Origin: Cognatundibacterium griseum
GTDB lineage: Bacteria > Pseudomonadota > Gammaproteobacteria > Burkholderiales > Burkholderiaceae_D
Assembly (NCBI RefSeq): GCF_014284195.1
Contig: NZ_JACOGC010000002.1
Coordinates: forward strand, 620,001-684,000
Direction of reading: 5' to 3'
DNA length: 64,000 nt
The notes under the pieces are model-generated. The model worked only from the letters and a program-made list of their open reading frames with translations, was not told the DNA's origin and ran no database searches. Of this stretch, positions 33,096 to 49,626 are shown in pieces. The position numbers were made by a program, and so were the translations under genes. Numbering within the stretch: position 1 is the first letter of the stretch; the number at the start of each line of letters is the position of its first letter.

Positions 33096-35218
33096 TGAGC
33101 GAGCAAGCCAACAACCCGACCAATGCCTATACCGTGCCGTCGGTATCTATTGCCACCGCATGCACTGGTGCATCCAGTAAAGCCAATGTGTTGGGTATGC
33201 GCACCATGCAGGAGCGCGCCTATGCCAAACGTGGGGAACAATACCTGTTGATCAAGTCGCCACCAGCATCAGGAAAATCGCGTGCGCTAATGTTTATTGC
33301 GTTGGATAAACTCAACAACCAAGGATTGCAGCAAGCCATTGTAGTAGTGCCCGAGCGTTCGATTGGCGGTAGCTTTGCCGACGAGGCATTGAGTCAGCAC
33401 GGCTTTTACTGGGATTGGCAAGTCGCCCCGCAGTGGAACTTATGCAACGCACCTGGTGTTGACGAGCCACGTGTTGCCAAATCCAAAGTGGATGCAGTAC
33501 GTCATTTCTTAGAAAGTACGGATAAGGTCTTGGTATGTACCCATGCCACCTTCCGCTTTGCGGTGGAAGAGCTGGGTGTCGAAGCGTTCGATAACCGCCT
33601 GATCGCTATCGATGAGTTTCACCATGTCTCCAGCAATCCGGACAATAAATTGGGTAGTCAGTTGGGGGCATTTATCGCCCGCGACAAGGTGCACCTGGTC
33701 GCGATGACCGGCTCTTACTTCCGGGGCGATAGCGAGGCAGTGCTAGGCTCTGCAGATGAAGCCAAATTTGAAACGGTTACATATACCTATTACGAACAGT
33801 TGAACGGTTATCACTGGCTCAAATCGCTGGACATTGGTTACTTCTTCTATACTGGCCCCTATGTTAATGCCATTTCCAAGGTGTTGGATCCGGCGTTAAA
33901 AACTATCGTTCACATTCCCAACGTCAATGCTCGCGAAAGCCTGAAAGACAAAGAACGTGAAGTGAATGAAATCATGCATGGCTTGGGCGAATGGAAAGGG
34001 GTTGATCCTGCTACAGGCTTCCATCTGGTGGAAACCAAAGAAGGCGGCACGCTGAAGGTGGCGGACCTGGTGGACGACAGTGATTCGGCAAAGCGCTCCA
34101 AAATACTCAATGCGTTGAAAGACCCGGCACAGAAGAACAACCGCAATCACGTTGATGTCATCATTGCGCTGGGTATGGCGAAGGAGGGTTTTGACTGGAT
34201 ATGGTGCGAACATGCACTGACCATCGGCTACCGCAGCAGCTTGACCGAAATTGTGCAGATCATTGGTCGTGCTACGCGAGACGCCCAAGGTAAGGAAAGA
34301 TCGCGCTTCACCAATTTGATCGCTGAACCTGCTGCAGATCAGTCTGCAGTCGCCGAGGCGGTGAACGACATGCTCAAGGCTATTTCTGCCAGCTTGTTGA
34401 TGGAACAAGTATTGGCACCGCGCTATGAGTTCACGCCGAAGGATGCTGGACCCCAAGATGGTTTTGTCTACAACGACGGTGAGGGCTACCAAGAGGGCCG
34501 CACCAATGTTGGCGTGAACGAGGCTACGGGTCAGTATCACGTGGAGATTAACGGGTTGGCGAAACCAGAAACGGCGGAAGCCACCCGCATCTGTAAAGAG
34601 GACTTGAGCGAAGTAGTCACGAGTTTTCTGCAAGACAAGACCGCACTGGAGCGCGGCCTGTTCGATAAGGAAAACACCTTGCCCGAAGAACTGACGCAGC
34701 TACGCATGGGTAAGATCGTGCGCGAGCGTTATCCAGACTTGAACGAAGCGGATCAGGAAGCGATTCGGCAACATGCAATCGCTGCCATGAATATTACCCA
34801 GCAGGCCAAATTGGCCTTAGCTCACGCAGACGCTAATGGTGGTGGCATGGCGCAAGGCAGTACAGCCTTGCTGGATGGCGTGCGTAAGTTCGTCAATGTA
34901 CGCGACTTAGACATCGACCTGATTGATCGCATCAATCCTTTCGAAGCTGCCTATGCGGTATTGGCGAAAGCGATGGATGAAAAATCGCTGCGCCAGGTAC
35001 AGGCCAGCATTGCCGCCAAGAAGGTCAGCATCCCCGAGGATGAAGCCCGTGAGCTGGCAAAACGCGCCTTGCAGTTCAAGAATGAGCGTGGCCGCTTGCC
35101 GGACATTAATTCCGCTGATGCGTGGGAAAAACGCATGGCTGAAGGCGTGGCTGCGCTGGCGCGTTACCGTGCACGGGCCAAGGCGGCACAGGGTCAGGGG
35201 GCGTCCAGCAATGGCTGA
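33095..35218 (+). CDS. SF2 DEAD/DEAH-like helicase of the methylase module
   Basis: A 707-residue protein with Walker A PPASGKS (56-62), motif II DEFH (173-176), a motif III-like MTGSY, and motif VI GRATRD (391-396): the restriction-helicase type, as in HsdR/type III Res subunits. The C-terminal region beyond about residue 430 is helical and unassigned. It overlaps the methylase stop by one base and the next gene by eight, a tightly coupled operon. No nuclease motif is visible in this subunit, so cleavage would fall to the GIY-YIG partner. Confidence 0.85.
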   Translation: MSEQANNPTNAYTVPSVSIATACTGASSKANVLGMRTMQERAYAKRGEQYLLIKSPPASGKSRALMFIALDKLNNQGLQQAIVVVPERSIGGSFADEALSQHGFYWDWQVAPQWNLCNAPGVDEPRVAKSKVDAVRHFLESTDKVLVCTHATFRFAVEELGVEAFDNRLIAIDEFHHVSSNPDNKLGSQLGAFIARDKVHLVAMTGSYFRGDSEAVLGSADEAKFETVTYTYYEQLNGYHWLKSLDIGYFFYTGPYVNAISKVLDPALKTIVHIPNVNARESLKDKEREVNEIMHGLGEWKGVDPATGFHLVETKEGGTLKVADLVDDSDSAKRSKILNALKDPAQKNNRNHVDVIIALGMAKEGFDWIWCEHALTIGYRSSLTEIVQIIGRATRDAQGKERSRFTNLIAEPAADQSAVAEAVNDMLKAISASLLMEQVLAPRYEFTPKDAGPQDGFVYNDGEGYQEGRTNVGVNEATGQYHVEINGLAKPETAEATRICKEDLSEVVTSFLQDKTALERGLFDKENTLPEELTQLRMGKIVRERYPDLNEADQEAIRQHAIAAMNITQQAKLALAHADANGGGMAQGSTALLDGVRKFVNVRDLDIDLIDRINPFEAAYAVLAKAMDEKSLRQVQASIAAKKVSIPEDEARELAKRALQFKNERGRLPDINSADAWEKRMAEGVAALARYRARAKAAQGQGASSNG

Positions 35219-36395
35219 TATTAACGATGACGAGCTGTTGGATGCACTCGGGGTAGAAGTCGCTCCGCTTAAAGCGTCAAGTCGAACCCCGCGCGAGGAG
35301 CGCATTATTGCTGGTTTTGAGGACATCCTGTGCTTCCATCAAGCGTATGGTCGCGCCCCGCAGCATGGTGAGGGCCGTGACATTTTCGAGCGCCTGTATG
35401 CGGTGCGCCTGGACCAGCTACGCAAGCTACCCGAAGCACACACCCTGCTGGCTGGACTGGATGCCCCAGGTCTGTTGTCTGGCGTGGCTTCGATTGCGGT
35501 CGATGTGGACGACTTGGACGAAGACGCCTTGCTGGCCGAGCTGGGTATTGGTGATGAACCCATCGACCAGAACGACATCACCGTGCTGCGCCATGTACGT
35601 TCTAATGTAGAGAAACGTGCAGCCGAGGAAGTCGCCGACCGTACGCGATGCACTGATTTCGAAAAATTTCAGCCATTGTTTGAGCAGATTGAGCGGGAAC
35701 TGAAGTCTGGCCTGCGCAAAACATTGCGCTTCGGGCGCGATACTAGCATTGCAAGCGGAAACTACTTTGTCGTCGGCGGGCAGCTTGCCTACGTCGCCGA
35801 AGTTGGCGATACCATCAAGGCTCCGAACGGCGAGAGTGATGCGCGTTTGCGTGTCATCTATGCCAATGGCACGGAAAGCAACTTGCTACGTCGCTCGCTA
35901 CAACGTGCGCTCTACAAGGATGACACTGGCCGCCGCCTGACAGACCATGACATGGGGCCGCTTTTTGGTGATACGCCAGAGCCTGACGATATCGAAACCG
36001 GAACGATCTACGTACTACGTAGCCTCTCAAGCAATCCATTCGTTACCGAGCATCGTGAGCTGATTCACAAGATTGGCGTGACTGGCGGCAGCGTGGAGAC
36101 CCGTATTGCGGGCGCGGAAAAGGATGCTACCTACTTACTGGCCGGCGTGGAGGTGGTGGCAACCTACAAGCTCCATAACCTGAATCGTGTCCGGCTAGAA
36201 AACATCTTCCACCACTTGTTTGGCGCAGCGCAGCTCGACTTGACCATCGAAGACCGCTTCGGACATCCGGTCAAACCGAGGGAATGGTTCCTGGTGCCGC
36301 TCCATGTGATTGACGAAGCGGTTCAGCGCATTCGGGACGGCTCGATTATCGATGTCATCTACGACCCGGAGACTGCTCGCTTGATCAGCCAGTAG
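35211..36395 (+). CDS. GIY-YIG (T5orf172-like) nuclease of the methylase module
   Basis: A 394-residue protein. The C-terminal domain has the GIY-YIG pattern: T-I-Y-V-L (265-269) for GIY, K-I-G-V-T (287-291) for YIG, a following arginine (VETRI) and a late glutamate (LENIFHHLF), as in the T5orf172/MUG113 branch. The N-terminal 200 residues are helical and acidic. The ATG at 35211 overlaps the helicase stop by eight bases; longer reading in this frame lies inside the helicase gene and was discarded. It probably supplies the DNA-cutting activity for the methylase-helicase pair. Confidence 0.82.
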   Translation: MADINDDELLDALGVEVAPLKASSRTPREERIIAGFEDILCFHQAYGRAPQHGEGRDIFERLYAVRLDQLRKLPEAHTLLAGLDAPGLLSGVASIAVDVDDLDEDALLAELGIGDEPIDQNDITVLRHVRSNVEKRAAEEVADRTRCTDFEKFQPLFEQIERELKSGLRKTLRFGRDTSIASGNYFVVGGQLAYVAEVGDTIKAPNGESDARLRVIYANGTESNLLRRSLQRALYKDDTGRRLTDHDMGPLFGDTPEPDDIETGTIYVLRSLSSNPFVTEHRELIHKIGVTGGSVETRIAGAEKDATYLLAGVEVVATYKLHNLNRVRLENIFHHLFGAAQLDLTIEDRFGHPVKPREWFLVPLHVIDEAVQRIRDGSIIDVIYDPETARLISQ

Positions 36396-36438: not shown

Positions 36439-38313
36439 ATGACGATCTATTCGACGCAAAGCGAGATTGCAATCACCGATGTTCGTGTGAGCAACTTTCG
36501 CTCGCTTGCCAATATCGAGGTCGAGCTTGGCGACCTCACGGTGCTCATCGGTGCCAACAACGCGGGCAAGACCAGCTTCCTGGACGCCATATTTGCGGCC
36601 ATCGGGTCGGGGCGCAAAGTTCTTGGCCAGGACGACGTTCGGCTTGCCCATGGCGAGGCGCTTGCCCCTAAAGAGCGCAAAGTCACTATTGATCTTCGTG
36701 TGAGGCCAATAGGTGCCGATGGCACAGTGACGGACAAGTTTCCAGAGGGAAGTTTTTGGACAGCGTTGTGGGGCAGCGGAATCGCGCTCGATCCGGTCGA
36801 GTTCTATGAGTTTGCCCCCATTCGAACAAGCCTCTCGTGGAGCGGTTCGAAGGCAGAGTATGTCGTTGAGCGCAACTTTCTCAAGGAGTGGCGCGAGTTT
36901 AAGAACTGGATCGATACGCCAGTCCAGGCCACGCCGGTTCGCGCGGCCCAGATTGAACCGATTGCCTTGCATTTCATCGACGCAAAGCGCGATCTCGACG
37001 AAGACCTTCGCAAGCCGGGATCGTTCTGGCGGCGGTTGACGGACGATCTTGGCTTGTCGGCGGTAGATGTGACCGACCTCGAAACGGCTCTCTCGGGGAT
37101 CAACCAAACAATCGTGGAAAAAAGCGAAATCCTCCAGCATTTGAAAACGAATCTGGCGGACTTGCAGAAGGTGGTTTCAGCCGACAGTGCGGGGATCGAC
37201 ATCGCGCCGGTTGCCCGTAAGTTGCGCGATCTATCCAAGGGCGTGGACGTTTCGTTCTCGACATCCGGCGCTCAATCATTTCCGCTCGCGCGCCATGGTA
37301 TGGGCACTCGCAGCCTCGCTTCGCTTCTGGTCTTTCGCGCGTTCGTCTCGTGGCGTCACGCACACGCTACCAGTGGCGGCGACAAGGTACATTCAATCCT
37401 CGCGCTAGAAGAGCCTGAGTCGCATTTGCACCCTCAAGCGCAACGCTCGTTGTTCGGTCACATCAAGGCCATCGCGGGGCAGCGCGTGGTCAGCACACAT
37501 TCGCCTTATTTCGCAGGCCAGGCGCGATTGGAAGACCTTCGGCTATTCATCAAGAAGGGCGGCGACACAATGGCGTCGAAACTCGACGTGTCAAAGCTGA
37601 CCAAGGCAGACGACAAGCGCAAGGTCCAAGAATCAGTCATTGACTCGCGCGGAGACATCCTCTTCGCTCGGGCGTTGGTGCTCTTTGAGGGGCAGACTGA
37701 AGAGCAGGCCTTGCCGATTTGGGCTCAAGAGTATTGGGGAGCGTCCATCCACGAGCTGGGTTTCAGTTTTGCCAGGGCAAACGGCACGAACTACTTCCCG
37801 TTCATATGGCTTGCGAATAACTTGGACATTCCTTGGTATCTGATCGCAGATGGTGAAGTCCAGCCGCTGAAAAATCTCGAAGACGAGTTAAAGAAGGCCA
37901 ACCTTCCAGAGTCGGCAAAGTCGCCAAACATCGTTGTTCTTCCTAGTGGAAATAACTTCGAGACTCAGCTCATTGCCGAAGGCTATATGGTCGAAATTGA
38001 AGCTGCGCTCAATACTGTATCGGGCGAGGATGCTTTTTTGGATGGGTTCATCGCCAAGAATCACGGGCTCAGTTATGGCAAGTACAAAGACGGTACGGAC
38101 AAAGGAAGCCGAGATTACAAGAGCGCTGGCGGCCGGGAGCGCGCGGCTGCAGATGCCATGAAGGGGCAGAAAACCCGGCTAGCTAAGCCGTTGGCGCATC
38201 AGATCGTGGGGCATGCCGACCCATCGAGAAGGTTTCCTTCAACGATTGATAGATTATTTAAGACCATAGGCGCAGCTCACGGACTGGTCAAAGCAGGGGG
38301 AACAAAGCCATGA
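36439..38313 (+). CDS. gajA: Gabija GajA, OLD-family ATPase-TOPRIM endonuclease
   Basis: A 624-residue protein. The ABC-type ATPase has Walker A GANNAGKT (38-45) and the signature and Walker B region LALEEPESHLHP, followed by STHSPYF. The C-terminal TOPRIM domain has E417/E421 (LFEGQTEE) and D471 (LIADGE). In Gabija, GajA is a nucleotide-sensing, sequence-specific nicking endonuclease. The next gene is a UvrD-like helicase with a 4-base overlap (ATGA), the exact Gabija arrangement. It begins 44 bases after the GIY-YIG gene, so it may be read from the same promoter. Confidence 0.88.
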   Translation: MTIYSTQSEIAITDVRVSNFRSLANIEVELGDLTVLIGANNAGKTSFLDAIFAAIGSGRKVLGQDDVRLAHGEALAPKERKVTIDLRVRPIGADGTVTDKFPEGSFWTALWGSGIALDPVEFYEFAPIRTSLSWSGSKAEYVVERNFLKEWREFKNWIDTPVQATPVRAAQIEPIALHFIDAKRDLDEDLRKPGSFWRRLTDDLGLSAVDVTDLETALSGINQTIVEKSEILQHLKTNLADLQKVVSADSAGIDIAPVARKLRDLSKGVDVSFSTSGAQSFPLARHGMGTRSLASLLVFRAFVSWRHAHATSGGDKVHSILALEEPESHLHPQAQRSLFGHIKAIAGQRVVSTHSPYFAGQARLEDLRLFIKKGGDTMASKLDVSKLTKADDKRKVQESVIDSRGDILFARALVLFEGQTEEQALPIWAQEYWGASIHELGFSFARANGTNYFPFIWLANNLDIPWYLIADGEVQPLKNLEDELKKANLPESAKSPNIVVLPSGNNFETQLIAEGYMVEIEAALNTVSGEDAFLDGFIAKNHGLSYGKYKDGTDKGSRDYKSAGGRERAAADAMKGQKTRLAKPLAHQIVGHADPSRRFPSTIDRLFKTIGAAHGLVKAGGTKP

Positions 38314-40169
38314 CAATACAACGCAATATTCGCCTATCGAGCCAGCAGGCTACCGTCGTCGATCACGTAGATGGACCTTTGCTGGTCGTTGCTGGCCCCG
38401 GCTCTGGAAAGACGCGAGTTCTCACCGAGCGCATTCGGTCTCTCCTGTCGAACGTGCCCGGTCATTTTCGCGTGCTGGCTTTGACCTTCACTAACAAAGC
38501 GGCCGACGAGATGCGGGAACGATTGGCAGACTTGGGCGACGCACGTCAACGCGCGTTCATAGGCACGCTTCACAGCTTTTGCCTGGACTTGCTCACTGAG
38601 CGAGGAAAGCTAGTTGGCGTCGAAGGTATGCCCAACATTTTCGAGCAGTTCAAGGACCGCAAGGAAATCCTGCTCAGCGCGATCAAGGAAGACCCAGCCC
38701 TGGAGGCTGAGTTGGATCAGGAAGGCGACGCCAAGGCTCGCGGAAAGCGGGTCGATGCATGGCTGCAAGGCATTTCGTGGATCAAGGCGCACCCCATTAC
38801 CTGCGCTGTGATCGAAGACGATATCGAGCGCCGCGTGTTGGAGGCCTATGACAACGAACTGAGGGCGAGCAACGCTTACGACTTCGATGACTTGCTTCTG
38901 CTGGCCTACCGCTTGCTGAGCGGCAATCCCAAGCTCGCCGAGTTCTACCAGCGGCTCTACAAGTTTGTCTGCATCGATGAAGCGCAGGACCTTAACGAAG
39001 CACAGTATGCGGTGATTTGCGCGTTATGCGGGGAGTCGTTCAAAAACGTGATGATGGTCGGCGACCCTAAGCAGTCCATTTATGGGTTCAATACGTCGAG
39101 CCCAGAATACATGGACCGTTTCAAAGCTGAGTTCAGCGCTAAGCTTGTCGGCCTGACGGAAAACTTCCGCTCGTCGAAATCTGTTGTCGACGTGGCACGC
39201 TCGCTGGATTCGAACTACCTTGTCGCAGCCCAATTGCCCATCCAAGGTCTTGCCGAATTGATCGTGGGCAACGATGAGGAAGATGAGGCTAAGCGTATCG
39301 TTGATCAGATTCAGGCCCTCTTTGATAACGGCCATCCCGATGTGGAAGGCGACATTGAGCCGTCGAAGTGCGCGATCCTTGGGCGCACGCGCTTCGCCTT
39401 ACTTGCCATCGAAAAAGAGCTGCGCTTGCGGTCGATCCCCTTCTACAAGCGCCTGACCGCCAACCATGAGAACGAATCCGAGGTGGTTGATGATTTTCAG
39501 CTTGCGTTGCGCGTGGTTGCTAATCCGCGGGATCGCTTGCATTTCGCAGCATTGGCGAAGAAGTGGAAGGTATCCGAGCCTGGTGCGACCAACGACGCCA
39601 CCAAAGCTCTCGCTTCCATGGCATCCGTAACAGGCAGCGTCAGTGGCAGGGCCACCGCTGTTGTTGCTGCTGTTGCCAGCGTTTTGCGGAATACTGCACG
39701 TTTAGACTTGATGCCAGCCTTTGCCGTTTTGACAGGCTATGCCGACACATTGGATGAGGGCGAGAAGCTTTTGATCTATGAAGACGTTGAGGTTTTCAGG
39801 CAGGAGTGGGACCAATATCTTCGTTCGGATTCCTCAACCCAGACTATCGCCGGCTTCATGAGCAGCAAAGCTCTCGGGGCGACGCAGAAGGCGAGCCGGG
39901 AAGGCGTGGCTTTGCTAACGGTGCACTCGTCGAAGGGATTGGAGTTCGACGTAGTTTTCATTGCGGGAATGGCTGAGGGCTCATTCCCTGACTACCGTTC
40001 CTCGACGGGGCGCGAACTTCTCGAAGAGCGCCGTAACGCGTTTGTGGCGGTAACTCGATCGAAGAGGTTACTTTATCTTTCCTACCCGGTGACCAGGATG
40101 ATGCCATGGGGTGATCGAAGAAGACAATTACCCTCTCGATTTATTCGAGAAGCGGGATTCAATCAATGA
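38310..40169 (+). CDS. gajB: Gabija GajB, UvrD-like SF1 helicase
   Basis: A 619-residue UvrD/Rep-like helicase: Q-motif SSQQATVVDH, Walker A AGPGSGKT (28-35), motif Ia TFTNKAADEM, motif II DEAQD (223-227), motif III GDPKQSIYGF, motif V TVHSSKGLEFDVVF and motif VI VAVTRSK. In Gabija, GajB senses DNA ends produced by GajA and hydrolyses nucleotides. It is longer than the original GajB proteins (about 490 residues) but all motifs are intact. A plain UvrD paralogue is unlikely given the coupled GajA. Confidence 0.87.
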   Translation: MTIQRNIRLSSQQATVVDHVDGPLLVVAGPGSGKTRVLTERIRSLLSNVPGHFRVLALTFTNKAADEMRERLADLGDARQRAFIGTLHSFCLDLLTERGKLVGVEGMPNIFEQFKDRKEILLSAIKEDPALEAELDQEGDAKARGKRVDAWLQGISWIKAHPITCAVIEDDIERRVLEAYDNELRASNAYDFDDLLLLAYRLLSGNPKLAEFYQRLYKFVCIDEAQDLNEAQYAVICALCGESFKNVMMVGDPKQSIYGFNTSSPEYMDRFKAEFSAKLVGLTENFRSSKSVVDVARSLDSNYLVAAQLPIQGLAELIVGNDEEDEAKRIVDQIQALFDNGHPDVEGDIEPSKCAILGRTRFALLAIEKELRLRSIPFYKRLTANHENESEVVDDFQLALRVVANPRDRLHFAALAKKWKVSEPGATNDATKALASMASVTGSVSGRATAVVAAVASVLRNTARLDLMPAFAVLTGYADTLDEGEKLLIYEDVEVFRQEWDQYLRSDSSTQTIAGFMSSKALGATQKASREGVALLTVHSSKGLEFDVVFIAGMAEGSFPDYRSSTGRELLEERRNAFVAVTRSKRLLYLSYPVTRMMPWGDRRRQLPSRFIREAGFNQ

Positions 40170-40422: not shown

Positions 40423-41562
40423 ATGGCAGCCAATCAGGATAAGTTCGAAGCATTGGTGACGCTACTGGAGATACGGCAAACCAGAAACGACAAGCCTTAT
40501 ATCTACTGTGAAGTCCAAGATCACGAGGCGCTCGGCGTACCGAAGGGAGCGAACTGGTTCAACCCGCCAAGCAATCTCCAGCTTCCCCTAGGTCCCCATA
40601 AAGCTACTCTGATTCGCAAGGGAGGCTTCTGCAATGTCGATTCGTTGCACATCGATGGTCGTCCTCAATCGATGGAGCACGTTGACGGGGAGGCTATCCT
40701 TGACTACGATGGCAGTATCGATCCCCTGAGGGACGATCAGCATGGCAGCTTCCCCGTGGAAGACGGAAAAGTAGAGGTCGTCAGACTGCCTCGCTTGCTT
40801 CTCAAAAAACAAAACATCGGTCGTATCCTGGCATCAATCCCGATCCAATTCGACATCCTTCACGACGGCAAGGAGTACGTGGCGACGACTTTGAAGACGA
40901 TGTCGCCCGCTGATGTATTCGAGTCGCAGGTTGAGACCCAGGCCCCCGTCATATTGGCCTCGCTGGGCGCGTGGTCAAGAGATGAGGGCGGTGAAGGTGT
41001 CTGGACAGAGGTTTGCTACCCAGGGGCGGCAATGTCCGCTCTGGTGTTTATGCCAGCCCTCTTACTGCGCCGGGCATGTATTCCCCATGTTGAGCCGGCC
41101 GCCTCAAGAGACCGATGGATTCCTGGGAATTACGAGGAAATCTTTACCGAGCAGGAGGGGGCACTCATCGACCGAGAAAAGCCGCGCGTTACCCACTTCC
41201 TAGTGGTACTGAGCAAAAACAAAAACTCGAAACTACGAATCGACCGTTTGCTTCGACCCCGCGGCGTGGCCGGCGATCCCGGTATCATTGTCGCCGATTG
41301 GGTGGAAGGGGAGGTCCTCTCGCAGCCCACTCTCTATTTTGACAAGCATGAAGCGGAAGTGATACTCACAACCTCTCCTTACGAAGGGGACAACGTCTCC
41401 TGCACCGTCAAGGAAACGCAGCTCGTTGCGGTCGGCATGACGCCGGGTACCAAGGTCGCCTTGTCCATAAAAGTAAACCGCAGCCAGAAGTTTGTCTGGA
41501 GCGCGGGCCGATTGCATCGTACGACGCCACTTCGAGGAAATGAGGAAGTAGATGATCACTAG
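40423..41562 (+). CDS. Unknown protein, first gene of the helicase-topoisomerase operon
   Basis: A 379-residue soluble protein with a high beta-strand tendency and no motif that I recognise. It begins with KFEALVTLLEIRQTRNDKPYIYCEV, and the last quarter (PYEGDNVSCTVKETQLVAVGM) reads as an all-beta domain. No membrane segments or clustered cysteines. Its last 11 bases overlap the 1607-residue gene, which indicates coupled translation and a stoichiometric partner. It could be a DNA-binding or substrate-specificity subunit, but nothing in the sequence proves this. Confidence 0.7.
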   Translation: MAANQDKFEALVTLLEIRQTRNDKPYIYCEVQDHEALGVPKGANWFNPPSNLQLPLGPHKATLIRKGGFCNVDSLHIDGRPQSMEHVDGEAILDYDGSIDPLRDDQHGSFPVEDGKVEVVRLPRLLLKKQNIGRILASIPIQFDILHDGKEYVATTLKTMSPADVFESQVETQAPVILASLGAWSRDEGGEGVWTEVCYPGAAMSALVFMPALLLRRACIPHVEPAASRDRWIPGNYEEIFTEQEGALIDREKPRVTHFLVVLSKNKNSKLRIDRLLRPRGVAGDPGIIVADWVEGEVLSQPTLYFDKHEAEVILTTSPYEGDNVSCTVKETQLVAVGMTPGTKVALSIKVNRSQKFVWSAGRLHRTTPLRGNEEVDDH

Positions 41563-44500
41563 TTTTCTGCGCTTTCTCTACAACCTGCGCAAAGCTCCAT
41601 CTTCCATCGGAAGGCCATTGGCGTGCTCTGAGTCTGCCGTGTCCTCTATCGTTGCGGCGCCGGAGCCCGACACCGCACGTGTGAAACCCGCGGTGTCGCT
41701 ATCTCTGCCGAAGCCGGCGCCGGCGAATTTCTACGTCGCTCCCAGGTCTCCTGCAGTGGATCCGCTATTCTTGGCGAGATATTACCGACAGGCCTTCCTG
41801 CATGTGGACATGGGGACCTTTGCCAAGATCGTAAATGGAAAGGGCCCTAAGCTCATCGGCCGACTGGAGCCGTCCGAGGTTCCCAGGAGACAGATCGATC
41901 TGTTGACCAGCAGCGAAGAGGGAGGTGGCGCAAAGCCGATTTACGCCATGGCAGTACTTTCTGCCGTGCCTATGAGAAAGCGCAATGACGTGATCGATGG
42001 CCGCCGGTACCCGATCCTTGCAGTCCCAGCCCAAGCCGTCGTCGAAGACAAGCAATTTTGGCTCGCTGCGGCGTCGGATACTGCCCCGATCGCCAACCCT
42101 CGGTGCTTCTACCCCATGGGCGAAGACTGCGACGTTGGTGACTTTGGCCGGTTCAGTGCTGAACTTCTGCAGTCCCTTGCCAAGCTCGGTGCCGATGAGG
42201 AGCTCAACATAGGCTGGCAAAGTTGGTGGGATACCTGTTTGGGTGCATTACTTCGGGCGACTGATGCCGAAGATCTCGCGATGCTCGAACAAAGGGCCTG
42301 CAGTCAGTTGCCAGCCTACGAAAAGCAAACCTGGGCGCTTCGGGTCGAAGTTTTTGCCCAAGAGGGTGCAACCAATGCCGCAGTGCGTGAGTTGGATGCA
42401 GTGTATGCCGAACTGATCAGCCGTCTTGAGAGGGGGGACAAGGCACTTGGATGCTATCCGACCTTTTGCGGCACCGGGAATTCGGCCGTCGCGCCCGAAC
42501 GCATTCCTATCAGCTATCGTCAAACTTTCGGGCATATGGATGCCTACGGCGGCGGAAAACGCGAGTTGTTCCCGCTCGATCCCACACAGCGGCGTGCCTC
42601 CCGTGCCATACTGTCCCTGCAGTCCGGCCAGGTTCAGGCCGTCAACGGTCCGCCTGGCAGCGGCAAGACGTCGATGTTGCGCGCTGTTGTCGCCAGCAAG
42701 TGGGTAGAGGCAGCGCTCGACCAAGCGCCTTGTCCAATCGTCCTGGCTTGCGGCACCACTAACCAATCCGTGACCAATGTGATCGGCGCCTTTGGCGAGG
42801 CGCCGCATCTCGACGACAAGCTGTTGATAGCCCGCCGGTGGATTCCGGATGTCCCGAGCTACGGAGCCTACCTGCCGTCTCAGTCCCAACTGAAAAAGGA
42901 CGGTAAGGACGACAGCAAGGACGTTACCAAGCAGTTTATCTGCCTTCAGAAGGCGGCAACAGGTAGCTTGTATGCCTTCGTCGGTAGATCGGACGTCCTC
43001 GATCCAGCAAGGGCACTGGAATTCGAAGTGTCTTATCTCCAGAGTGCCCGGGCGCAATATCCAGATATACAACTTACTCGGCTGGAGGATGCGGTGGCCG
43101 CCGTGCACGGCGATCTCCACACGCATGTGGAGACGGTTATTGCTCATGCTAAGGCCTATTCTGAGCACCCGGAGTCGCGGACAAATTTCCATAAGCGCGC
43201 GCGCGCGCGGATCGGCCAGTGTGCCGAGCACTGGCATGTCGATAGGGTGGAGATCGCGGGGAAATGCCTGACGGCACTCGAACGCGCCTCAACCGAGCAT
43301 GGGCGGTGCGACATCGACGCGCTGGATGATCTGATTGACCTGTTGTGGCGGGCCGATGCCTTTCACCTCGCCGCCCGCTATTGGGAGGGGCGGTTCCTCC
43401 TGGCCCAGCGAACCCGTCTATTCTCTCGTCATCCAAAAAATGTGGAGGAACAGCTCCGCCGCTTGTGCATGCTGACGCCCTGTCTGGTCGCGACCTGCCA
43501 TTTGACGCCGACTTGGTGCAATACCGAGCCTGCAGCGGGCGGCAATCAGCCGGACGGGTGCTTGGCGATCGGACTGATTGACTTGCTCTTGATCGACGAA
43601 GCCGGCATGGTTTCGCCCGAACTGGGAGCCTGCCTGTTAGGGCTCGCCCAACGGACAGCGTTCATCGGGGATATCAAGCAACTCGATCCTATCTGGTCGG
43701 TCGATGTGGTCGGGGAGTCCGCCATTGTGGCCGGCCTCACTGAGGACACTGAGGTGCGTAATGCCCTGATCCAGTCCGGAAGGTCCGTCGCCGGCGGCAG
43801 CATGCTGCGCGCTGCGCGCCTAGTTTCTCACTGGCGGGACCCTGATGACGATGGCGTGACACTGCGTTATCACTACCGGTGCGCGCCGCCCATCATCGAA
43901 TACTGCAATTACCTGTCCTATGGCGGGGTGCTGCGCACGCGGACCAAGACCAAGGATGGATTCTGGCCACCACCGCTTTCGTGGGTTGCCTTGGAAGAGG
44001 GGCCCAGCAAGGTGGGCAGCGGCTCCTTCTGCAACGTAGCAGAGGCGGAGGAGATCGTTTCATGGGTTCTCAGCGCTTGGCCTAAACTGACCGGTAACCC
44101 CGGCATGGAGGGAAAGACTATCGATGCTGTACTTGCCTTGCTAACGCCATATAGAGCGCAATCGGAATATCTGGCCAAGCGGCTCAAGGAGGAGTTCGAT
44201 CGAGCCCGCCGAATGGGAACCCTAGGCGAGTGCTGCCCCAGTTCCCAGCATGTCAAGGACGTGGTGATCGGCACGGTTCATAAATTACAGGGCGCCGAAC
44301 GCCCAGTGATCTGCTTTAGCCTCGTTGAAGGCCCCGAGCAGATGCCTAGCCAGTTCATGGATGGCAACGGGGCCATGCTTAACGTTGCCGCTTCGCGGGC
44401 CAAGCATGCGCTCGTTGTGTTCGGCCACCGGGATCGATTCTTGGTCACCGAGGTCAAGCCGGGTACCCAACTTAAGGATCTAGCGTTACAAGGGCTGCCG

Positions 44501-46375
44501 CCCTCTATCCTGTTAGGTGCCTACCTCAAGTTAGTCGCCAAGCCACTTTATCCAAGGCACTTAGCAATAATCGAGGCGCCGGGCAAGCTGGTGGCTCTGA
44601 GGCATGTTCTCGGCAAGGAATTCCGCGTCGAGGCGACTGGGGGATCTCTATGGTCCCTCGATCTAAAGGAGGGCGTTGACGATCGTGCCGGACTGGCACC
44701 CCGTCCGACATTGCGGAGTGGGGCGGAAGCGGTGATCAAACGAATTGCGCAGGCGGCGCAATCTGTTGAGAGTGTGCTGTTGCTTACCGACGATGATCGT
44801 ATGGGCGACTACATAGCCTGGCAGGCTTCCAGGCTTACGGGCCTTGATGCGAAAGGTCTGCCGGTTAAGCGGGCGCGCATGGGGGCAATTACACCGGGCG
44901 GCATCCGGGATGCCATTACGCGTGCCACGGAGGGAGTGGACGAGGCGAGAGTCCTGGCCGAAATCACTCGCGAGGTCGCGGACCAGATGTTGACACGCTA
45001 CCTGAGCGCCTATCTCGACAATGTTTTGAATCATAAGGGCGTGCGCAGCCACTTGTTGAGTCGAGAACAATTCTGGTCCAATTTGGGGGCAATGGATGGC
45101 ACCAATAAACTCAAGACGACTAGCAAGACGCTGGGCAGGGTACAGGCAGGAATTCTGGGGCTGGTTGCCGGGGAGATAGGTCGCAAAGCAGCTGCTCCGT
45201 ACTCGCATTGGGTAAGGATTGACCTGGGTGGGCGGTCCCTGGAGGGGCGAATTCTCGGTTCGCTGGGCCCGCAATGGACGGTAGGACAGGTATCCCCCTC
45301 TTGTAACGTTGAGTTCACAGTCTTGGATGTCACGGAGGATCGCCTGCCCGCCGACATCGCTGGGGCAGGCACAGTGGAACTGTTGGCCGGCGCATGGCGG
45401 CGCTATGCCATGCCACCTGGCACCACCATGAGACGGCTGCAGGCGCTCTATGAGGGCAGCTGGGCCCAGTGTCCGCAGGCTCCAGCCGACCCGATCGATC
45501 CGATCGAAATCCGGTATGAAGGTGCTGGACATCCTCCGGTCCTGCCGCTGGATCGGGCCAAAACGCCGGACACTTTGTTCATTGGCGCGACCACCGAGGA
45601 TGTGGAAACGGCGAATATCTATCGGCTGATCTGGATGTGGTTCGAAGCCTTGGAATGCACTTCGGCGACCTACAGACGGATCACGGTACGCGGAAGGCTT
45701 CATGGGTATGGCGACATCGAGTTCACCGGCATGGCTCTTGAAGGGCTTCCCTCTGAGTTCTATAAGCCTCTCGACGGGGTTAGTAACGAAGAATTACTCC
45801 TCTGCGAGTTGAACAAAGGGCCCAATTCGCCGGAGGTTCTGCAAGAGCTGGCGATGTTGCGGCAGGTCCAGCCAAGAAATTGCCGCAGCGAAGCGCCGCA
45901 AGCAGGTCTGACCTTGGACGAGCTGCTTTACCTCTGCCAGAGAATGGGTATTGGCAAGCCTTCGTCGCTCGCTTCCTCGCTACAATCCCTCATCGACCGC
46001 GAAATCGTGCTGCCTAGTGGTCCCGGCAAGCCGCTCTCTTTGAGTCGTGCTGGCGTATGGATTGCCGAATTGCTCGGCTTACCCAAATTCCCCGCCGACT
46101 ACGAAGGTGTCGGAAAGGTCGGTAAGGCGGACTTCAGCACCCAACTGGAGCGTTCGTTGACCCAGATCGAGAATGGCCTTTCGACGCCAAGGGACGTACT
46201 TGAGTGGCTGGTTGAGCTACTGGGTCCGTCCCACTTCAAGCACGTCTTACCTGATGCAATCTGGTCCAATATGACCGAATTGAACCGAGCCATGGCAAAT
46301 GCCCAGAGCGAAGCATCGGAGGCGCCGCAACTGATTTCCCCGCCCGGAGCGTATGATCCGCTATGTCAGGACTGA
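41552..46375 (+). CDS. Upf1-like SF1 helicase fused to a type IA topoisomerase body
   Basis: A 1607-residue protein. After about 340 unassigned residues there is a Dna2/Upf1-like SF1 helicase: LDPTQRRA, Walker A GPPGSGKT (366-373), a long insertion, motif II DEAG (682-685), GDIKQLDP, TVHKLQGAE, and NVAASRAK (944-951). From about residue 1004 it becomes a topoisomerase IA: TOPRIM E1008 (IIEAPGK) and D1080/D1082 (LLTDDDRMGDYIAW), GRVQ (1195-1198), TMRRLQALYEG, IYRLIW (1356-1361), and GIGKPSSLASSL plus FSTQLERSL near the C-terminus. The usual catalytic Tyr-Pro-Arg appears as C1307-P-Q1309. Helicase-topoisomerase fusions recall reverse gyrase, but that has an SF2 helicase. It overlaps both neighbours. 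Confidence 0.88.
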   Translation: MITSFLRFLYNLRKAPSSIGRPLACSESAVSSIVAAPEPDTARVKPAVSLSLPKPAPANFYVAPRSPAVDPLFLARYYRQAFLHVDMGTFAKIVNGKGPKLIGRLEPSEVPRRQIDLLTSSEEGGGAKPIYAMAVLSAVPMRKRNDVIDGRRYPILAVPAQAVVEDKQFWLAAASDTAPIANPRCFYPMGEDCDVGDFGRFSAELLQSLAKLGADEELNIGWQSWWDTCLGALLRATDAEDLAMLEQRACSQLPAYEKQTWALRVEVFAQEGATNAAVRELDAVYAELISRLERGDKALGCYPTFCGTGNSAVAPERIPISYRQTFGHMDAYGGGKRELFPLDPTQRRASRAILSLQSGQVQAVNGPPGSGKTSMLRAVVASKWVEAALDQAPCPIVLACGTTNQSVTNVIGAFGEAPHLDDKLLIARRWIPDVPSYGAYLPSQSQLKKDGKDDSKDVTKQFICLQKAATGSLYAFVGRSDVLDPARALEFEVSYLQSARAQYPDIQLTRLEDAVAAVHGDLHTHVETVIAHAKAYSEHPESRTNFHKRARARIGQCAEHWHVDRVEIAGKCLTALERASTEHGRCDIDALDDLIDLLWRADAFHLAARYWEGRFLLAQRTRLFSRHPKNVEEQLRRLCMLTPCLVATCHLTPTWCNTEPAAGGNQPDGCLAIGLIDLLLIDEAGMVSPELGACLLGLAQRTAFIGDIKQLDPIWSVDVVGESAIVAGLTEDTEVRNALIQSGRSVAGGSMLRAARLVSHWRDPDDDGVTLRYHYRCAPPIIEYCNYLSYGGVLRTRTKTKDGFWPPPLSWVALEEGPSKVGSGSFCNVAEAEEIVSWVLSAWPKLTGNPGMEGKTIDAVLALLTPYRAQSEYLAKRLKEEFDRARRMGTLGECCPSSQHVKDVVIGTVHKLQGAERPVICFSLVEGPEQMPSQFMDGNGAMLNVAASRAKHALVVFGHRDRFLVTEVKPGTQLKDLALQGLPPSILLGAYLKLVAKPLYPRHLAIIEAPGKLVALRHVLGKEFRVEATGGSLWSLDLKEGVDDRAGLAPRPTLRSGAEAVIKRIAQAAQSVESVLLLTDDDRMGDYIAWQASRLTGLDAKGLPVKRARMGAITPGGIRDAITRATEGVDEARVLAEITREVADQMLTRYLSAYLDNVLNHKGVRSHLLSREQFWSNLGAMDGTNKLKTTSKTLGRVQAGILGLVAGEIGRKAAAPYSHWVRIDLGGRSLEGRILGSLGPQWTVGQVSPSCNVEFTVLDVTEDRLPADIAGAGTVELLAGAWRRYAMPPGTTMRRLQALYEGSWAQCPQAPADPIDPIEIRYEGAGHPPVLPLDRAKTPDTLFIGATTEDVETANIYRLIWMWFEALECTSATYRRITVRGRLHGYGDIEFTGMALEGLPSEFYKPLDGVSNEELLLCELNKGPNSPEVLQELAMLRQVQPRNCRSEAPQAGLTLDELLYLCQRMGIGKPSSLASSLQSLIDREIVLPSGPGKPLSLSRAGVWIAELLGLPKFPADYEGVGKVGKADFSTQLERSLTQIENGLSTPRDVLEWLVELLGPSHFKHVLPDAIWSNMTELNRAMANAQSEASEAPQLISPPGAYDPLCQD

Positions 46376-47337
46376 GCAGCTATCCCCGATCTGGAGCCGG
46401 TGGGCTCAATCCCGCCGTGAAGATCACCAAACTGCTCAACGATTTGGGCAGTGCAGCCACCTTGCAGGACGGACGTTTCATAGCAACCCAGCTTATGAGG
46501 GAGTTGAATTTATATTGCAGTGGTAAGGCGAGTGCGGGGGATAAAGTCGACTTGTGTACAGCAGCCAGGGATAGCCTGTTTAAGGCAAAGCAAGCCGGTG
46601 TTCTTGACGGCTTCGCCTTTTTTGAGGCGATGCAGCTTGGAGCGGATTGGTTCATCAAGGCCTTTCCATTCGCCCAGATCGCGGGGACCGCTCAAGATAT
46701 AAGCGCTTTCAACAAGTGCGCCCAAACACTAGAAAGCGCCGGCACGCTGGCAACCCTGGGGGACAAGCGCAGCGCGTCGGAGGAGGTAGGATCGATCTCT
46801 GCGCGTTATCAGATGTGCGCTTTGGCCGGCCGGGATCTATATGGCAGCCACTTCAATCCGGCGACGGCGGTCGGCAGCACCAAATACTCGGTCACTCGAT
46901 CCAATAATCAACTGCTTTACGCCCGGTGCGCCGGACCTTACAACGTGAATGAGATCCTGGTGGTGGAAGTTCAAGGCTGCGATCCGATCGTCATCGTTGC
47001 TGAGGCTAAGGGTGGGGGCAGTACTTTCGGTGACGCCAATCCGCATCCTACTCAGAGTAAACCCAATGTGCTTGCCGCAGGCGCCACCACCGCAAACCGA
47101 ATCAGTCAGACCGATTTGGCGTATGCTGTGTCGCGAGCTATTTACATGTCCAATGCAAAGAGCCACAACGGAAGTGACGTCCAGAAACTGAGGAAGGAAA
47201 TCGGCTTCCTGATCCAGAATGCTGCGTTTAGCAAACGGCTCCTGTACATAACCGCGCGTGGTCAAGTTAAAGTCATCTCCACTAATCCGTTTCAAGCAGA
47301 CCTTACGTCCGAGAGGGAACATATCAAATGGATCTAA
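46363..47337 (+). CDS. Putative restriction-endonuclease-fold nuclease (EAKGG motif)
   Basis: A 324-residue protein. The first 150 residues are helical. The C-terminal half has a strand-rich stretch ending in IVIVAEAKGGGS (E214-x-K216), the core of the PD-(D/E)XK fold as it appears in many polymorphic-toxin and restriction nucleases, with a preceding acidic D207. A TQSKPN segment and a helix with AVSRAIYM follow, as in such toxins. It overlaps the topoisomerase gene by 13 bases and the next gene by 10. It is probably the DNA- or RNA-cutting effector of the operon; the fold is inferred from the motif only. Confidence 0.6.
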   Translation: MSGLSSYPRSGAGGLNPAVKITKLLNDLGSAATLQDGRFIATQLMRELNLYCSGKASAGDKVDLCTAARDSLFKAKQAGVLDGFAFFEAMQLGADWFIKAFPFAQIAGTAQDISAFNKCAQTLESAGTLATLGDKRSASEEVGSISARYQMCALAGRDLYGSHFNPATAVGSTKYSVTRSNNQLLYARCAGPYNVNEILVVEVQGCDPIVIVAEAKGGGSTFGDANPHPTQSKPNVLAAGATTANRISQTDLAYAVSRAIYMSNAKSHNGSDVQKLRKEIGFLIQNAAFSKRLLYITARGQVKVISTNPFQADLTSEREHIKWI

Positions 47338-48170
47338 ACATCAGCACCTTTATGAGGTACAAGCTCCCGGATGCCAAGCTTACCGAAGCAGTAGCAGAAT
47401 TTCTGAATCAACAGCCGGTCGATTTACCCTATTACCAGCGATGCATTCGCATGGCTTTAGTCGATTACAGTAGCAATCCCGAGGACTACTCCTACTTCGC
47501 CATACTCGACCAAGTGGCAAACGGCATCGCGACAGCCTATGCGTTGAGAAACAAGGATGATTTCGTGCAACGCTTATTCATCTATCGTTATGATGAAGAC
47601 GGGGTCGAAGCGATTCCACCCATCGTATACCCGCCGCGCCACTTGATCTTGCGGCTAGTTCTGGCGTTACTGCAACGTGATGAGCACACTATCGTGCGTT
47701 TGGTGCACAAGGCCACGCCGCAGGTTGAACTGCGTCCCCAGGCCGGTCTCGAAGCATTTCAATGGCAGGCCATCGTCCTGCTACTCCAGGCCAAGCGAAA
47801 CGCGTACGAAGCGGCTCTTTCCAACCTGGATAATCTGCTGCTGTCGGACGCTTTCATTCCACGAGACCGGGCATTCGCTGGCGCCTGGTCTGGAATTGCG
47901 CACGCTGTCCTTTCCGGTGATCAAGAGAGACTGGCGTCGGCCATCATTACCCGCAACGAGATCTGTACACAATATATCGCTAAGCAGCTCAAGCGCTGGT
48001 TGCGTAGCGCCAATACGGAACTCTTCGCCCTGGACTTCTTTGATCATGCAACAACGGCGTTGCTGCTTGCCGCGAATCGGAGCATTCCCTATTTTAGTCT
48101 GGCACAGTTGGAGAACTCCTATGCGGACATCCATTGGCTCCTATCGGCTATGCGGTCTAAGCCGCGTTAG
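47328..48170 (+). CDS. All-helical protein, possible immunity or partner protein
   Basis: A 280-residue protein made of repeated amphipathic helices with many Leu/Ala/Arg/Gln, without catalytic motifs. It sits directly after the EAKGG nuclease, overlapping it by ten bases. Size, helical repeat character and position resemble Imm49-type immunity proteins paired with nuclease toxins, which would make it an inhibitor of the nuclease; a structural subunit is equally possible. Low certainty on function, good certainty that the gene is real. Confidence 0.6.
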   Translation: MDLNISTFMRYKLPDAKLTEAVAEFLNQQPVDLPYYQRCIRMALVDYSSNPEDYSYFAILDQVANGIATAYALRNKDDFVQRLFIYRYDEDGVEAIPPIVYPPRHLILRLVLALLQRDEHTIVRLVHKATPQVELRPQAGLEAFQWQAIVLLLQAKRNAYEAALSNLDNLLLSDAFIPRDRAFAGAWSGIAHAVLSGDQERLASAIITRNEICTQYIAKQLKRWLRSANTELFALDFFDHATTALLLAANRSIPYFSLAQLENSYADIHWLLSAMRSKPR

Positions 48171-48229
48171 TGCAGGGACCAGCCAGGCATTTGTAAAAAT
48201 ACGGGAATACGTGGAGTAGAGGAGAGACG

Positions 48230-48598
48230 ATGGGAATTATCATTGAGTGCTACGAGCTAGCTGCCGATCAAGTGCCGAGCAAGCCAACCGGAGATGTCCT
48301 GCTTTCAATTCTGCAAGGCCGCTCCCCCGTCGCTTCGCTACCACTCAACAGTGCCATCGCGGCAGAGGCGCTTTCGGTATTGGAAAATCTCGATGCCACA
48401 TTTTTTGCGGGTGCGCTTGAGCCGAACTTCAGCACGCTCATTCCACTTGAAATCCAGGCAGATCTGCATACCAAGGTCGACGATGTTCTAAATAAAGGAG
48501 GCAGCGAGGACTACGTTCTCGCAATTTTTGACCTCCTTGAAGTTACTCTCTCTGAGGCAATGCGAACAAGTAAGACTTTAGTATTTCGCGTGAGATAG
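48230..48598 (+). CDS. Hypothetical protein at the end of the cargo
   Basis: A 122-residue acidic protein, not recognised, 59 bases after the helical protein and with GGAGAGACG before its ATG. It contains no motifs that I can name. It may be a fifth member of the helicase-topoisomerase operon or an unrelated cargo gene. Confidence 0.5.
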   Translation: MGIIIECYELAADQVPSKPTGDVLLSILQGRSPVASLPLNSAIAAEALSVLENLDATFFAGALEPNFSTLIPLEIQADLHTKVDDVLNKGGSEDYVLAIFDLLEVTLSEAMRTSKTLVFRVR

Positions 48599-48990: not shown

Positions 48991-49626
48991 GTGACATATA
49001 GCGTCAAGGAAATTTTTTATACTTTGCAGGGCGAGGGCAATCATGCCGGTCGCCCTGCGGTGTTTTGCCGTTTTTCCGGTTGCAATTTATGGACTGGCAG
49101 AGAAGAAGATCGTTCCTCAGCGATTTGCCAGTTTTGTGATACTGATTTTGTCGGTACTGACGGTATCGGTGGTGGAAAATTTAAAGAGGCGCAAGAGCTG
49201 GCAGCGACAATTAATGCGCTTTGGCCAGCATCGTATACCGCCAGTAAATATGTGGTGTTCACGGGCGGCGAACCGTTGTTGCAGCTCGATACGGCTTTGA
49301 TCGATGCTATGCACGCTGTGGGCTTTGAAATTGCGATTGAAACCAATGGCACGCTGCCTGTACCTGATGGCGTGGACTGGATATGCGTGAGTCCCAAAAT
49401 GGGTTCTGAACTCGTGGTTCGCAAGGGCAATGAACTCAAGGTTGTTATTCCGCAAATCGGGCAGGACATGGCGACATATGCCAATCTTGATTTTGAACAT
49501 TACTTCGTGCAGGCGATGGATGGCCCATTCCGAGATGATAATCTGCGCCGCGCAATTGATTTCTGCAAACAGCATCCGCAGTGGAAGCTGAGTTTGCAGA
49601 CACATAAACTCCTTCAAATTCCTTAA
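48991..49626 (+). CDS. queE: 7-carboxy-7-deazaguanine synthase QueE
   Basis: A radical SAM enzyme that converts CPH4 to CDG in queuosine biosynthesis. The 211-residue protein has the QueE-specific cluster motif with long first spacing, C-N-L-W...AICQFC-DTDF, then VFTGGEPLL and the IETNGTLP and CVSPK motifs. It begins at GTG and its native upstream neighbour was guaA; after the island insertion its 5' region is island DNA, so it must use another promoter. It runs into queD after seven bases. Confidence 0.94.
   Translation: MTYSVKEIFYTLQGEGNHAGRPAVFCRFSGCNLWTGREEDRSSAICQFCDTDFVGTDGIGGGKFKEAQELAATINALWPASYTASKYVVFTGGEPLLQLDTALIDAMHAVGFEIAIETNGTLPVPDGVDWICVSPKMGSELVVRKGNELKVVIPQIGQDMATYANLDFEHYFVQAMDGPFRDDNLRRAIDFCKQHPQWKLSLQTHKLLQIP

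Follow-up and report, generated by a model that had tools for sequence, protein, structure and literature searches.

The operon and its neighbourhood

The DNA analysed here (the window) is a stretch of 64,000 nucleotides from Cognatundibacterium griseum; all coordinates refer to its plus strand. It contains four genes encoding proteins of 379, 1607, 324 and 280 aa, whose successive overlaps measure 11, 13 and 10 bases, followed by a gene for a 122-aa protein. This layout had been described in a sequence-only reading and is borne out by the ORF coordinates. The first ORF (40423..41562) encodes an upstream partner. In the product of the second (41552..46375), an SF1 helicase (Upf1-like, of MkoC type) is joined to a type IA topoisomerase body that lacks a catalytic tyrosine. 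The product of the third (46363..47337), the tyrosine-carrier, has a disordered N-terminal tail with a tyrosine motif, a helical domain, and a predicted nuclease-like alpha/beta C-terminal domain. The 280-aa (47328..48170) and 122-aa (48230..48598) proteins are candidate immunity or regulatory partners.

The 379-aa protein has no Pfam, NCBIfam or PADLOC match; it aligns at 21-23% identity with the products of the upstream genes of four relatives (L021-L024), with which it shares an invariant W-x4-LHR-x2-P near the C-terminus. The 280-aa and 122-aa proteins also lack a significant match in these three libraries. Counterparts of the former are 260-267 aa long in Burkholderia and Pseudomonas relatives (18-20% identity); those of the latter are 115 aa long in both Pseudomonas relatives (22-25% identity). 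The sequence-only reading had made its proposal depend on the genes occurring together elsewhere, and they do: all five are kept in the two Pseudomonas relatives (L022 and L023), and a nuclease-like gene directly follows the fusion in 4/4 other loci of the same clade.

The Gabija genes gajA and gajB (36439..40169; E-values of 7.7e-230 and 3e-244) adjoin the operon, as had been claimed, and lie outside it. In ten other loci, PADLOC matches were obtained for six of the ten neighbours tested, which had been chosen for their defence-like look. The island also carries integrase, TrfA-like and TrbL-like genes. No inverted repeats of at least 14 were found at its ends, and no tRNA was found in the window. 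Plasmid 2 of Polaromonas JS666, a conjugative plasmid, carries one relative. A viral origin was considered and rejected: viral contigs yielded one locus, and in two short phage records without annotation the match is confined to the helicase part.

The helicase-topoisomerase fusion

Four Pfam domains are found in the 1607-aa protein, all above curated cut-offs: AAA_11 (E 3.5e-10), AAA_12 (1.2e-18), Toprim (9.8e-7) and Topoisom_bac (4e-9). The first two mark the helicase motor, at residues of about 342-960 (42575..44431). The topoisomerase body, residues about 1001-1570 (44552..46261), was delimited by Pfam, alignments, and a predicted structure with fold comparison; the prediction gives the overall type IA topoisomerase fold, Toprim included, fused to the helicase. 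The body retains E1008, K1012, D1080, D1082, Q1297 and H1327. At the position of the third Toprim acid it has M1084 (D1080-D1081-D1082-R1083-M1084) and hence not DxDxE. In a profile-profile alignment Y319 of E. coli TopA falls in a gap opposite the window's protein. At LYEGSW (residues 1299-1304; 45446..45463), where TopA runs on into its catalytic tyrosine (LYEAGYITYMRT), there is no tyrosine, and a search of the topoisomerase part for Y[PSAMH]R[STA] found none. The fusion itself was correctly called from the sequence; the description of the topoisomerase body as complete was not, because the chain lacks the segment with the catalytic tyrosine.

Helicase and topoisomerase Pfam domains occur together in 23 of the 29 proteins of the homologue set (the window's own included). 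At E <= 1e-25 the fusion is found in two of 398 genomes of a phylum sample, again including its own; by match range, the remaining matches in that sample are ordinary type IA topoisomerases or the helicase alone. The residues corresponding to E9, K13 and the two DxD acids are kept in 22/22 members, and H1327 (the counterpart of H365) is present in at least 90% of alignment rows. The whole DxDxE is retained in 5/22; the third acid is replaced in the other 17, two of which have the conservative substitute D. An inactive enzyme would be another way to read this replacement.

The helicase half matches the PADLOC MkoC model (PDLC03924) at E 3.7e-144, with the best stretch at 582-975. The earlier statement that the locus matches no named system therefore fails for this half, although the operon as a whole does not fit Mokosh type II and still looks undescribed. 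Mokosh type II gives the best PADLOC match and shares the SF1 AAA_11/AAA_12 helicase and the defence-island setting. However, PMC10952713 lists a PLD-like domain for Mokosh types I and II, whereas the 1607-aa protein has no PLD family (Pfam, E <= 1) and has topoisomerase domains instead, with a tyrosine-bearing effector gene alongside. A helicase-PLD relative does exist in the homologue set (P0026).

Reverse gyrase likewise joins a helicase to a type IA topoisomerase. The operon's protein is distinct from it, as had been proposed: the helicase is a Upf1-like SF1 enzyme (AAA_11/AAA_12/AAA_30) rather than SF2, with no DEAD or Helicase_C family at E <= 1, and the operon lies in a defence island, with immunity-like genes in some relatives. 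In the split reverse gyrase of Methanopyrus kandleri the tyrosine is on the smaller subunit. There, the border between the two polypeptides is described as not coinciding with a domain border (PMC8185306); here, in contrast, what is supplied in trans would be a short motif at the N-terminus of an exchangeable protein that is otherwise unrelated.

The tyrosine-carrier and its relatives

The type IA motif Y-x-R-(S/T) is present in the operon as Y7-P8-R9-S10 of the 324-aa protein, within SYPRS (residues 6-10; 46378..46392). Y7 is the proposed catalytic tyrosine and R9 the counterpart of E. coli Arg321; M1, Y7 and R9 are invariant in 7/7 homologues, and the residue between Y and R varies (P, L, S or A). 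The split point between the two chains coincides with the tyrosine. Since one protein is a topoisomerase body without a tyrosine and its partner carries the tyrosine motif, the two look like parts of one enzyme. A dead topoisomerase without any tyrosine was the first reading and was dropped once gene neighbourhoods showed the motif on the next gene. The tail has low confidence in a structure prediction of the 324-aa protein alone, and this protein is not among the matches of a canonical profile search at E <= 10. Two relatives have Pfam matches to the tyrosine region, both below cut-off (L035, 0.029; L029, 0.15).

The motif is short, and the search pattern was chosen after it had been seen; it was found in the operon of 22/22 topoisomerase-bodied loci (once as YPRA, in L027) against a background of 0/1215. 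In the scans described below, five relatives without the topoisomerase showed no motif-bearing operon gene. The predicted tyrosine-less fold and the motif on a separate gene strictly co-occur in the relatives. From 25 loci, L043 (a 70-aa fragment), L044 and L045 (distant helicases) were left out of the counts; L078 is the same locus as L025.

A loose scan (Y.R[ST] within the first 16 residues, frames of at least 90 aa) was run on 19 topoisomerase-bodied loci and recovered the partner in 16. It also gave four non-partner matches: upstream frames in L028 and L030, a 90-aa frame in L026, and the helicase start of L036 (YWRS). L027, L035 and L029 (the latter two with the motif at residue 53) required a wider search, and L077, L079 and L084 were settled separately. 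Extending the scan to the first 80 residues and to both strands, with frames of at least 100 aa, over the five topoisomerase-less loci, L043-L045 and the plasmid loci L085-L088 returned only a 127-aa frame in L037, out of frame within the helicase gene; this wider scan is not exhaustive, as it missed the L029 carrier, whose first possible start is further upstream. Other tyrosines were rejected as candidates. LYPRS-type sites at L026 1138 and L077 1010 are seven residues ahead of the Toprim IEAPGK/IESDNK, which is the wrong place, and L038 1080 is in a protein without a topoisomerase.

The window's carrier is a predicted nuclease on account of EAKGG (residues 214-218; 47002..47016) and predicted secondary structure. 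E214, A215, K216, G217 and G218 are invariant in 7/7 homologues, and E214-A-K216 closes a predicted strand (209-216), placing a (D/E)-x-K motif on the core strand of a putative restriction-endonuclease-like domain. The preceding Asp of PD-(D/E)XK was not seen in the 324-aa protein, which has YNxN at that place. A profile search with this protein gave no significant match; neither did a PDB fold search, which barely covered the C-terminal half and had no PD-(D/E)XK nuclease among the matches listed. NCBIfam matches to holo-ACP synthase (E 0.0019, far under cut-off) and, for the L035 carrier, adenylate kinase (0.0015) were taken as chance.

Across the family, these effectors have a constant N-terminal part and fall into five classes of variable C-terminal domain. 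Two classes have Pfam nuclease matches, two have nuclease-like motifs read by eye, and for one (L026, L031, L079) neither Pfam nor NCBIfam gives a match. The DHLIP class occurs in two places in the tree, where supported branches force two changes (the tool warned of long branches); this placement suggests effector exchange only faintly. Immunity-like genes adjoin the nuclease in several relatives, with matches over cut-off in L041 and L084 and below it in L033, L032, L034 and L046; none was recognised in the window with Pfam, NCBIfam or PADLOC. The inhibitor role that the sequence-only reading had suggested as possible may or may not apply to the 280-aa protein: such neighbours exist in relatives, but neither this protein nor the 122-aa one resembles a known family significantly. 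Polymorphic toxins with immunity genes (SUKH, YezG) are similar in their exchangeable C-terminal domains, common N-terminal element and, in some loci, adjacent immunity-like gene. They differ in that here a topoisomerase active-site motif takes the place of the secretion trunk as the common element, and in that the partner in the operon is a helicase-topoisomerase.

A probable topoisomerase divided between two proteins

To our knowledge, type IA topoisomerases are regarded as self-contained, with tyrosine and metal site in one chain, save for rare split reverse gyrases. Bacterial topoisomerase I (TopA) differs from the present system, in which the tyrosine motif is on another protein, the third Toprim acid is mostly replaced and a helicase is fused. 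Type IIA topoisomerases such as gyrase (GyrA/GyrB) also have tyrosine and Toprim on separate chains; they have an unrelated architecture, cut both strands, and their tyrosine chain is no nuclease. We consider it probable that the 1607-aa and 324-aa proteins together make up one split type IA topoisomerase, with SYPRS of the predicted nuclease likely giving the tyrosine in trans, and that the operon acts in defence. That role would be directed against phages or plasmids, to judge by the neighbourhood alone.

In such a system the SF1 helicase would translocate along invading or abnormal DNA and pass single strands into the topoisomerase cavity, where the flexible tail of the effector would dock. 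There its tyrosine, governed by the Toprim metal site, would attack the backbone and leave the effector in covalent linkage with the 5' end of the strand so cut, bringing the nuclease or toxin domain at its C-terminus to act on that DNA. With the third Toprim acid replaced in 17/22 members, resealing of this adduct would probably be slow. The effector domain would be exchangeable as in polymorphic toxins, with an immunity-like gene adjoining in several relatives.

The same replacement, together with the low-confidence tail and the immunity-like genes, would also fit docking without chemistry. Here a dead topoisomerase clamp would hold the effector idle via its N-terminal YPRT tail, the tyrosine being a binding hook, and the helicase would free or activate the nuclease upon sensing foreign DNA. 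This seems unlikely: the known catalytic Y and R recur though the residue between them varies, the E9, K13, DxD and H365 counterparts are conserved, and DxDxE is whole in 5/22.

The integrase, TrfA-like and TrbL-like genes of the island, the relatives on the Polaromonas plasmid and on a viral contig, and the split M. kandleri enzyme (as described in PMC8185306) would fit a classical strand-passing topoisomerase, merely split and serving replication, transfer or maintenance of a mobile element, with nuclease and immunity gene as an addiction module. We find this quite improbable given the adjoining defence genes, the PADLOC matches of six of ten chosen neighbours elsewhere and the defence-type (MkoC) helicase; five effector classes sharing one tyrosine tail also fit an arms race better. 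Another reading takes the operon for a variant of Mokosh type II whose PLD nuclease gave way to a degenerate topoisomerase serving purely to bind DNA, with the YPRT-like start a coincidence. It is hardly credible despite the MkoC match and P0026, given the 22/22 co-occurrence against no such gene in five topoisomerase-less relatives, the 0/1215 background and a split point at the tyrosine.

For the split topoisomerase, there is about an even chance that it represents a new immune machine: a helicase-driven topoisomerase that has passed its tyrosine to interchangeable toxins and, on cutting foreign DNA, loads a nuclease covalently at the 5' end. A chemistry that in topoisomerases is normally reversible and self-contained would then serve DNA-targeted protein ligation, the presumed nucleophile being on an effector whose other domain differs between lineages. 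If true, this would account for genes (in Polaromonas, for example) whose present annotations stop at 'HNH endonuclease signature motif containing protein', 'hypothetical protein' or 'AAA domain-containing protein'. It would also provide a natural two-part system for protein-tagging of DNA 5' ends, make a topoisomerase's cleavage function separable from its strand passage in the test tube, and constitute a new immunity mechanism, the covalent delivery of a nuclease to DNA.

Composition and family of the operon

The five open reading frames (379, 1607, 324, 280 and 122 residues) placed by the sequence-only reading at window 40423..48598 on the forward strand were recovered there. The first four overlap by 11, 13 and 10 bases; the fifth starts 59 bases past the 280-residue frame. 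The 1607-residue protein gave Pfam matches to AAA_12, AAA_11, Toprim and Topoisom_bac, and the MkoC (Mokosh) model of PADLOC matched its helicase half (E 3.7e-144). None of the other four proteins (379, 324, 280 and 122 residues) had a significant Pfam match or a PADLOC match at E <= 1. The genome has one further, complete type IA topoisomerase gene (874-residue frame, E 8.1e-119).

The operon genes, earlier read as one unit, do co-occur in relatives. The clade of the window protein includes L021 (Burkholderia), L022 and L023 (Pseudomonas) and L024 (Poseidonocella). A counterpart of the 324-residue gene lies directly downstream of the fusion in all four (28-34% identity). All five genes are found in the same order in L022 and L023, and at least four in L021.

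Helicase and topoisomerase Pfam domains are combined in 23 of 29 family proteins, including that of the window. One relative is 83% identical to the window protein, twenty of similar length are 36-39% identical, and one shorter protein is 31% identical. The fusion is rare: it was present in 2 of 398 genomes of a phylum sample, the window's own counted. A species-level scan (one genome per species; 84,980 genomes by database description) gave 25 loci, 22 of which were read; 17 have a topoisomerase body and five have the helicase without it. These 17, with one viral contig, two sampled genomes, one plasmid and the window, make up the 22 topoisomerase-bodied loci considered below. Where lineage is stated all belong to the Pseudomonadota, save one Verrucomicrobiota MAG (L031).

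The divided topoisomerase and the tyrosine motif

The 1607-residue protein has a predicted topoisomerase IA fold without the catalytic tyrosine, joined to an SF1 helicase. Fifteen of the 22 bodies stop 3-30 residues beyond LYx, the residues preceding the tyrosine in E. coli TopA, and the remaining topoisomerase part is a separate gene. Four of five such C-part genes tested scored above the Topoisom_bac cut-off (E 1.3e-12 to 3.5e-10; positions 257-408, 228-405, 317-403 and 322-379), and that of L031 gave E 0.066; at further loci the C-part was recognised by eye from its start, AHPM or SAH. The seven remaining bodies, including the window's, carry body and C-part in one chain. A single Pfam domain is thus spread across two or three genes.

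A catalytic-type motif lies at the free N-terminus of the 324-residue partner, which begins MSGLSSYPRSGAGG; the text around the catalytic tyrosine is GYITYMRTD in TopA and LITYPRSD in TopB. Body and motif-bearing partner are strictly coupled: an operon gene with the motif is present in 22 of 22 topoisomerase-bodied loci, and none was found in the five loci without a topoisomerase. The motif is at residues 4-8 in 20 loci and at residue 53 in L035 and L029, which have its fullest text, GGITYPRTDGHRLSE; in L027 it reads YPRA, not YPRT. The canonical profile matched the L035 and L029 carriers exactly at the tyrosine (E 0.0016 and 0.0078; 19 sequences searched), and these carriers matched Topoisom_bac positions 155-181 and 158-185 below the cut-off (E 0.029 and 0.15). 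In L021-L046, none of the 1215 other frames of 100 residues or more has the motif within the first 16 residues, and one has it within the first 60; the pattern was fixed only after the motif had been seen, and these figures measure rarity and are not a blind test.

A search with the HNH group gave 105 proteins, and close to the N-terminus 100 of them fit [STAG]Y[PL]R[ST]. The last place is T in all 100, and the residue between Y and R is P in 86 and L in 14. Of the five outside the pattern, four seem truncated at the N-terminus, and the fifth, P0133, is chimera-like. P0133 (431 residues) joins an apparent part of a helicase protein to the HNH effector domain and has no tyrosine motif; it looks like the product of locus rearrangement or of misassembly.

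Effector domains and neighbouring genes

When the first 25 residues (75 for L035 and L029) are set aside, the 22 carriers form five groups, between which BLASTP at 1e-3 detects no similarity. These are the window type (EAKGG), Endonuclea_NS_2 (E 7.6e-32 and 1.5e-8), a third with motifs resembling GYDADHLIP, a fourth that is unrecognised, and an HNH type (L046, E 1.9e-4, above cut-off). The effector domains are exchangeable, and the tyrosine carrier is read as an exchangeable effector. The carriers of L026 (13697-14479), L031 (4852-5643) and L079 (10407-11192) form one class; in the scans made, their C-terminal domain had no match in Pfam or NCBIfam, and it is possibly a non-nuclease toxin. A Polaromonas carrier, named 'HNH endonuclease signature motif containing protein' by NCBI, starts MSGVSSYPRTRG. 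It is followed by a YrhA-family gene (1.1e-16, above cut-off) and a gene starting like the topoisomerase C-part.

Immunity-family genes adjoin the effector in some relatives. Among ten genes tested, one matched a YezG-like family above cut-off (5.7e-7) and four matched SMI1_KNR4/SUKH below it (3.6e-5, 8.1e-4, 0.0087 and 0.039). The 280- and 122-residue genes of the window are immunity candidates by position only. A third operon gene of about 340-365 residues is seen at both residue-53 loci (L035, 15216-16313; L029, 15104-16126), with a weak propeller-like match in L029 (Reg_prop, 0.0033, below cut-off). Two more genes (about 320-360 and 190-225 residues) lie downstream of the carrier in L027, L028, L040 and L077; the L028 pair had no significant Pfam match.

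The operon is the last element of an insertion of about 33.5 kb (window 15452-48990) between guaA (13859-15451) and queE (48991-49626). The guaA-queE spacing is 6-172 bases in 10 of 20 sampled congeners and 1.4-74 kb in seven; in the other three they were either on separate contigs or not found. The insertion contains an integrase, TrfA-like and TrbL-like genes, ietA and ietS (1.9e-154; E printed as 0), a type IIG enzyme (5.1e-260) and Gabija. Between the last two, at 33095-36395, a gene for a 707-residue DEAD-box helicase overlaps one for a 490-residue T5orf172/MUG113 protein; the pair gave no clear PADLOC system. Six of ten neighbours in relatives, hand-picked as defence-like, had PADLOC matches (HsdM, ATPase-Toprim, HsdR, SIR2, MkoA and GajB). 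The MkoA-type helicase gene (L025, 14652-17855, opposite strand; E 2.7e-98) adjoins the split-topoisomerase operon; Mokosh and this operon both use related helicases.

Proposed action

Residues 1-14 of the window partner were predicted as a very low confidence N-terminal tail, as would be expected of a flexible docking peptide. Docking of this tail would complete the active site, and by transesterification the effector would become attached to the cut strand at its 5' end. According to PMC7587558, type IA enzymes generate a 5'-phosphotyrosine and strictly require divalent metal for rejoining only; changes weakening active-site Mg binding trap the covalent complex, and change of the Toprim glutamate abolishes DNA cleavage. 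The paper also describes Arg321, one residue past the tyrosine, as strictly conserved, with a critical role both for the nucleophile and in rejoining. The Toprim glutamate is taken here to be E9, whose counterpart E1008 is kept in the window protein. Slow or absent rejoining would fit the replaced third Toprim acid.

Judged by title or start of abstract, none of the literature matches listed describes a type IA topoisomerase with a split of this kind, or one within a defence system; most subscription papers and bioRxiv fall outside this scope, which makes the absence weak. The nearest precedent is the reverse gyrase of Methanopyrus kandleri, which is split too (PMC8185306). The tyrosine very probably acts in trans, and a role of the operon in defence is likely; that covalent loading of the effector is its purpose is an evenly balanced proposition.
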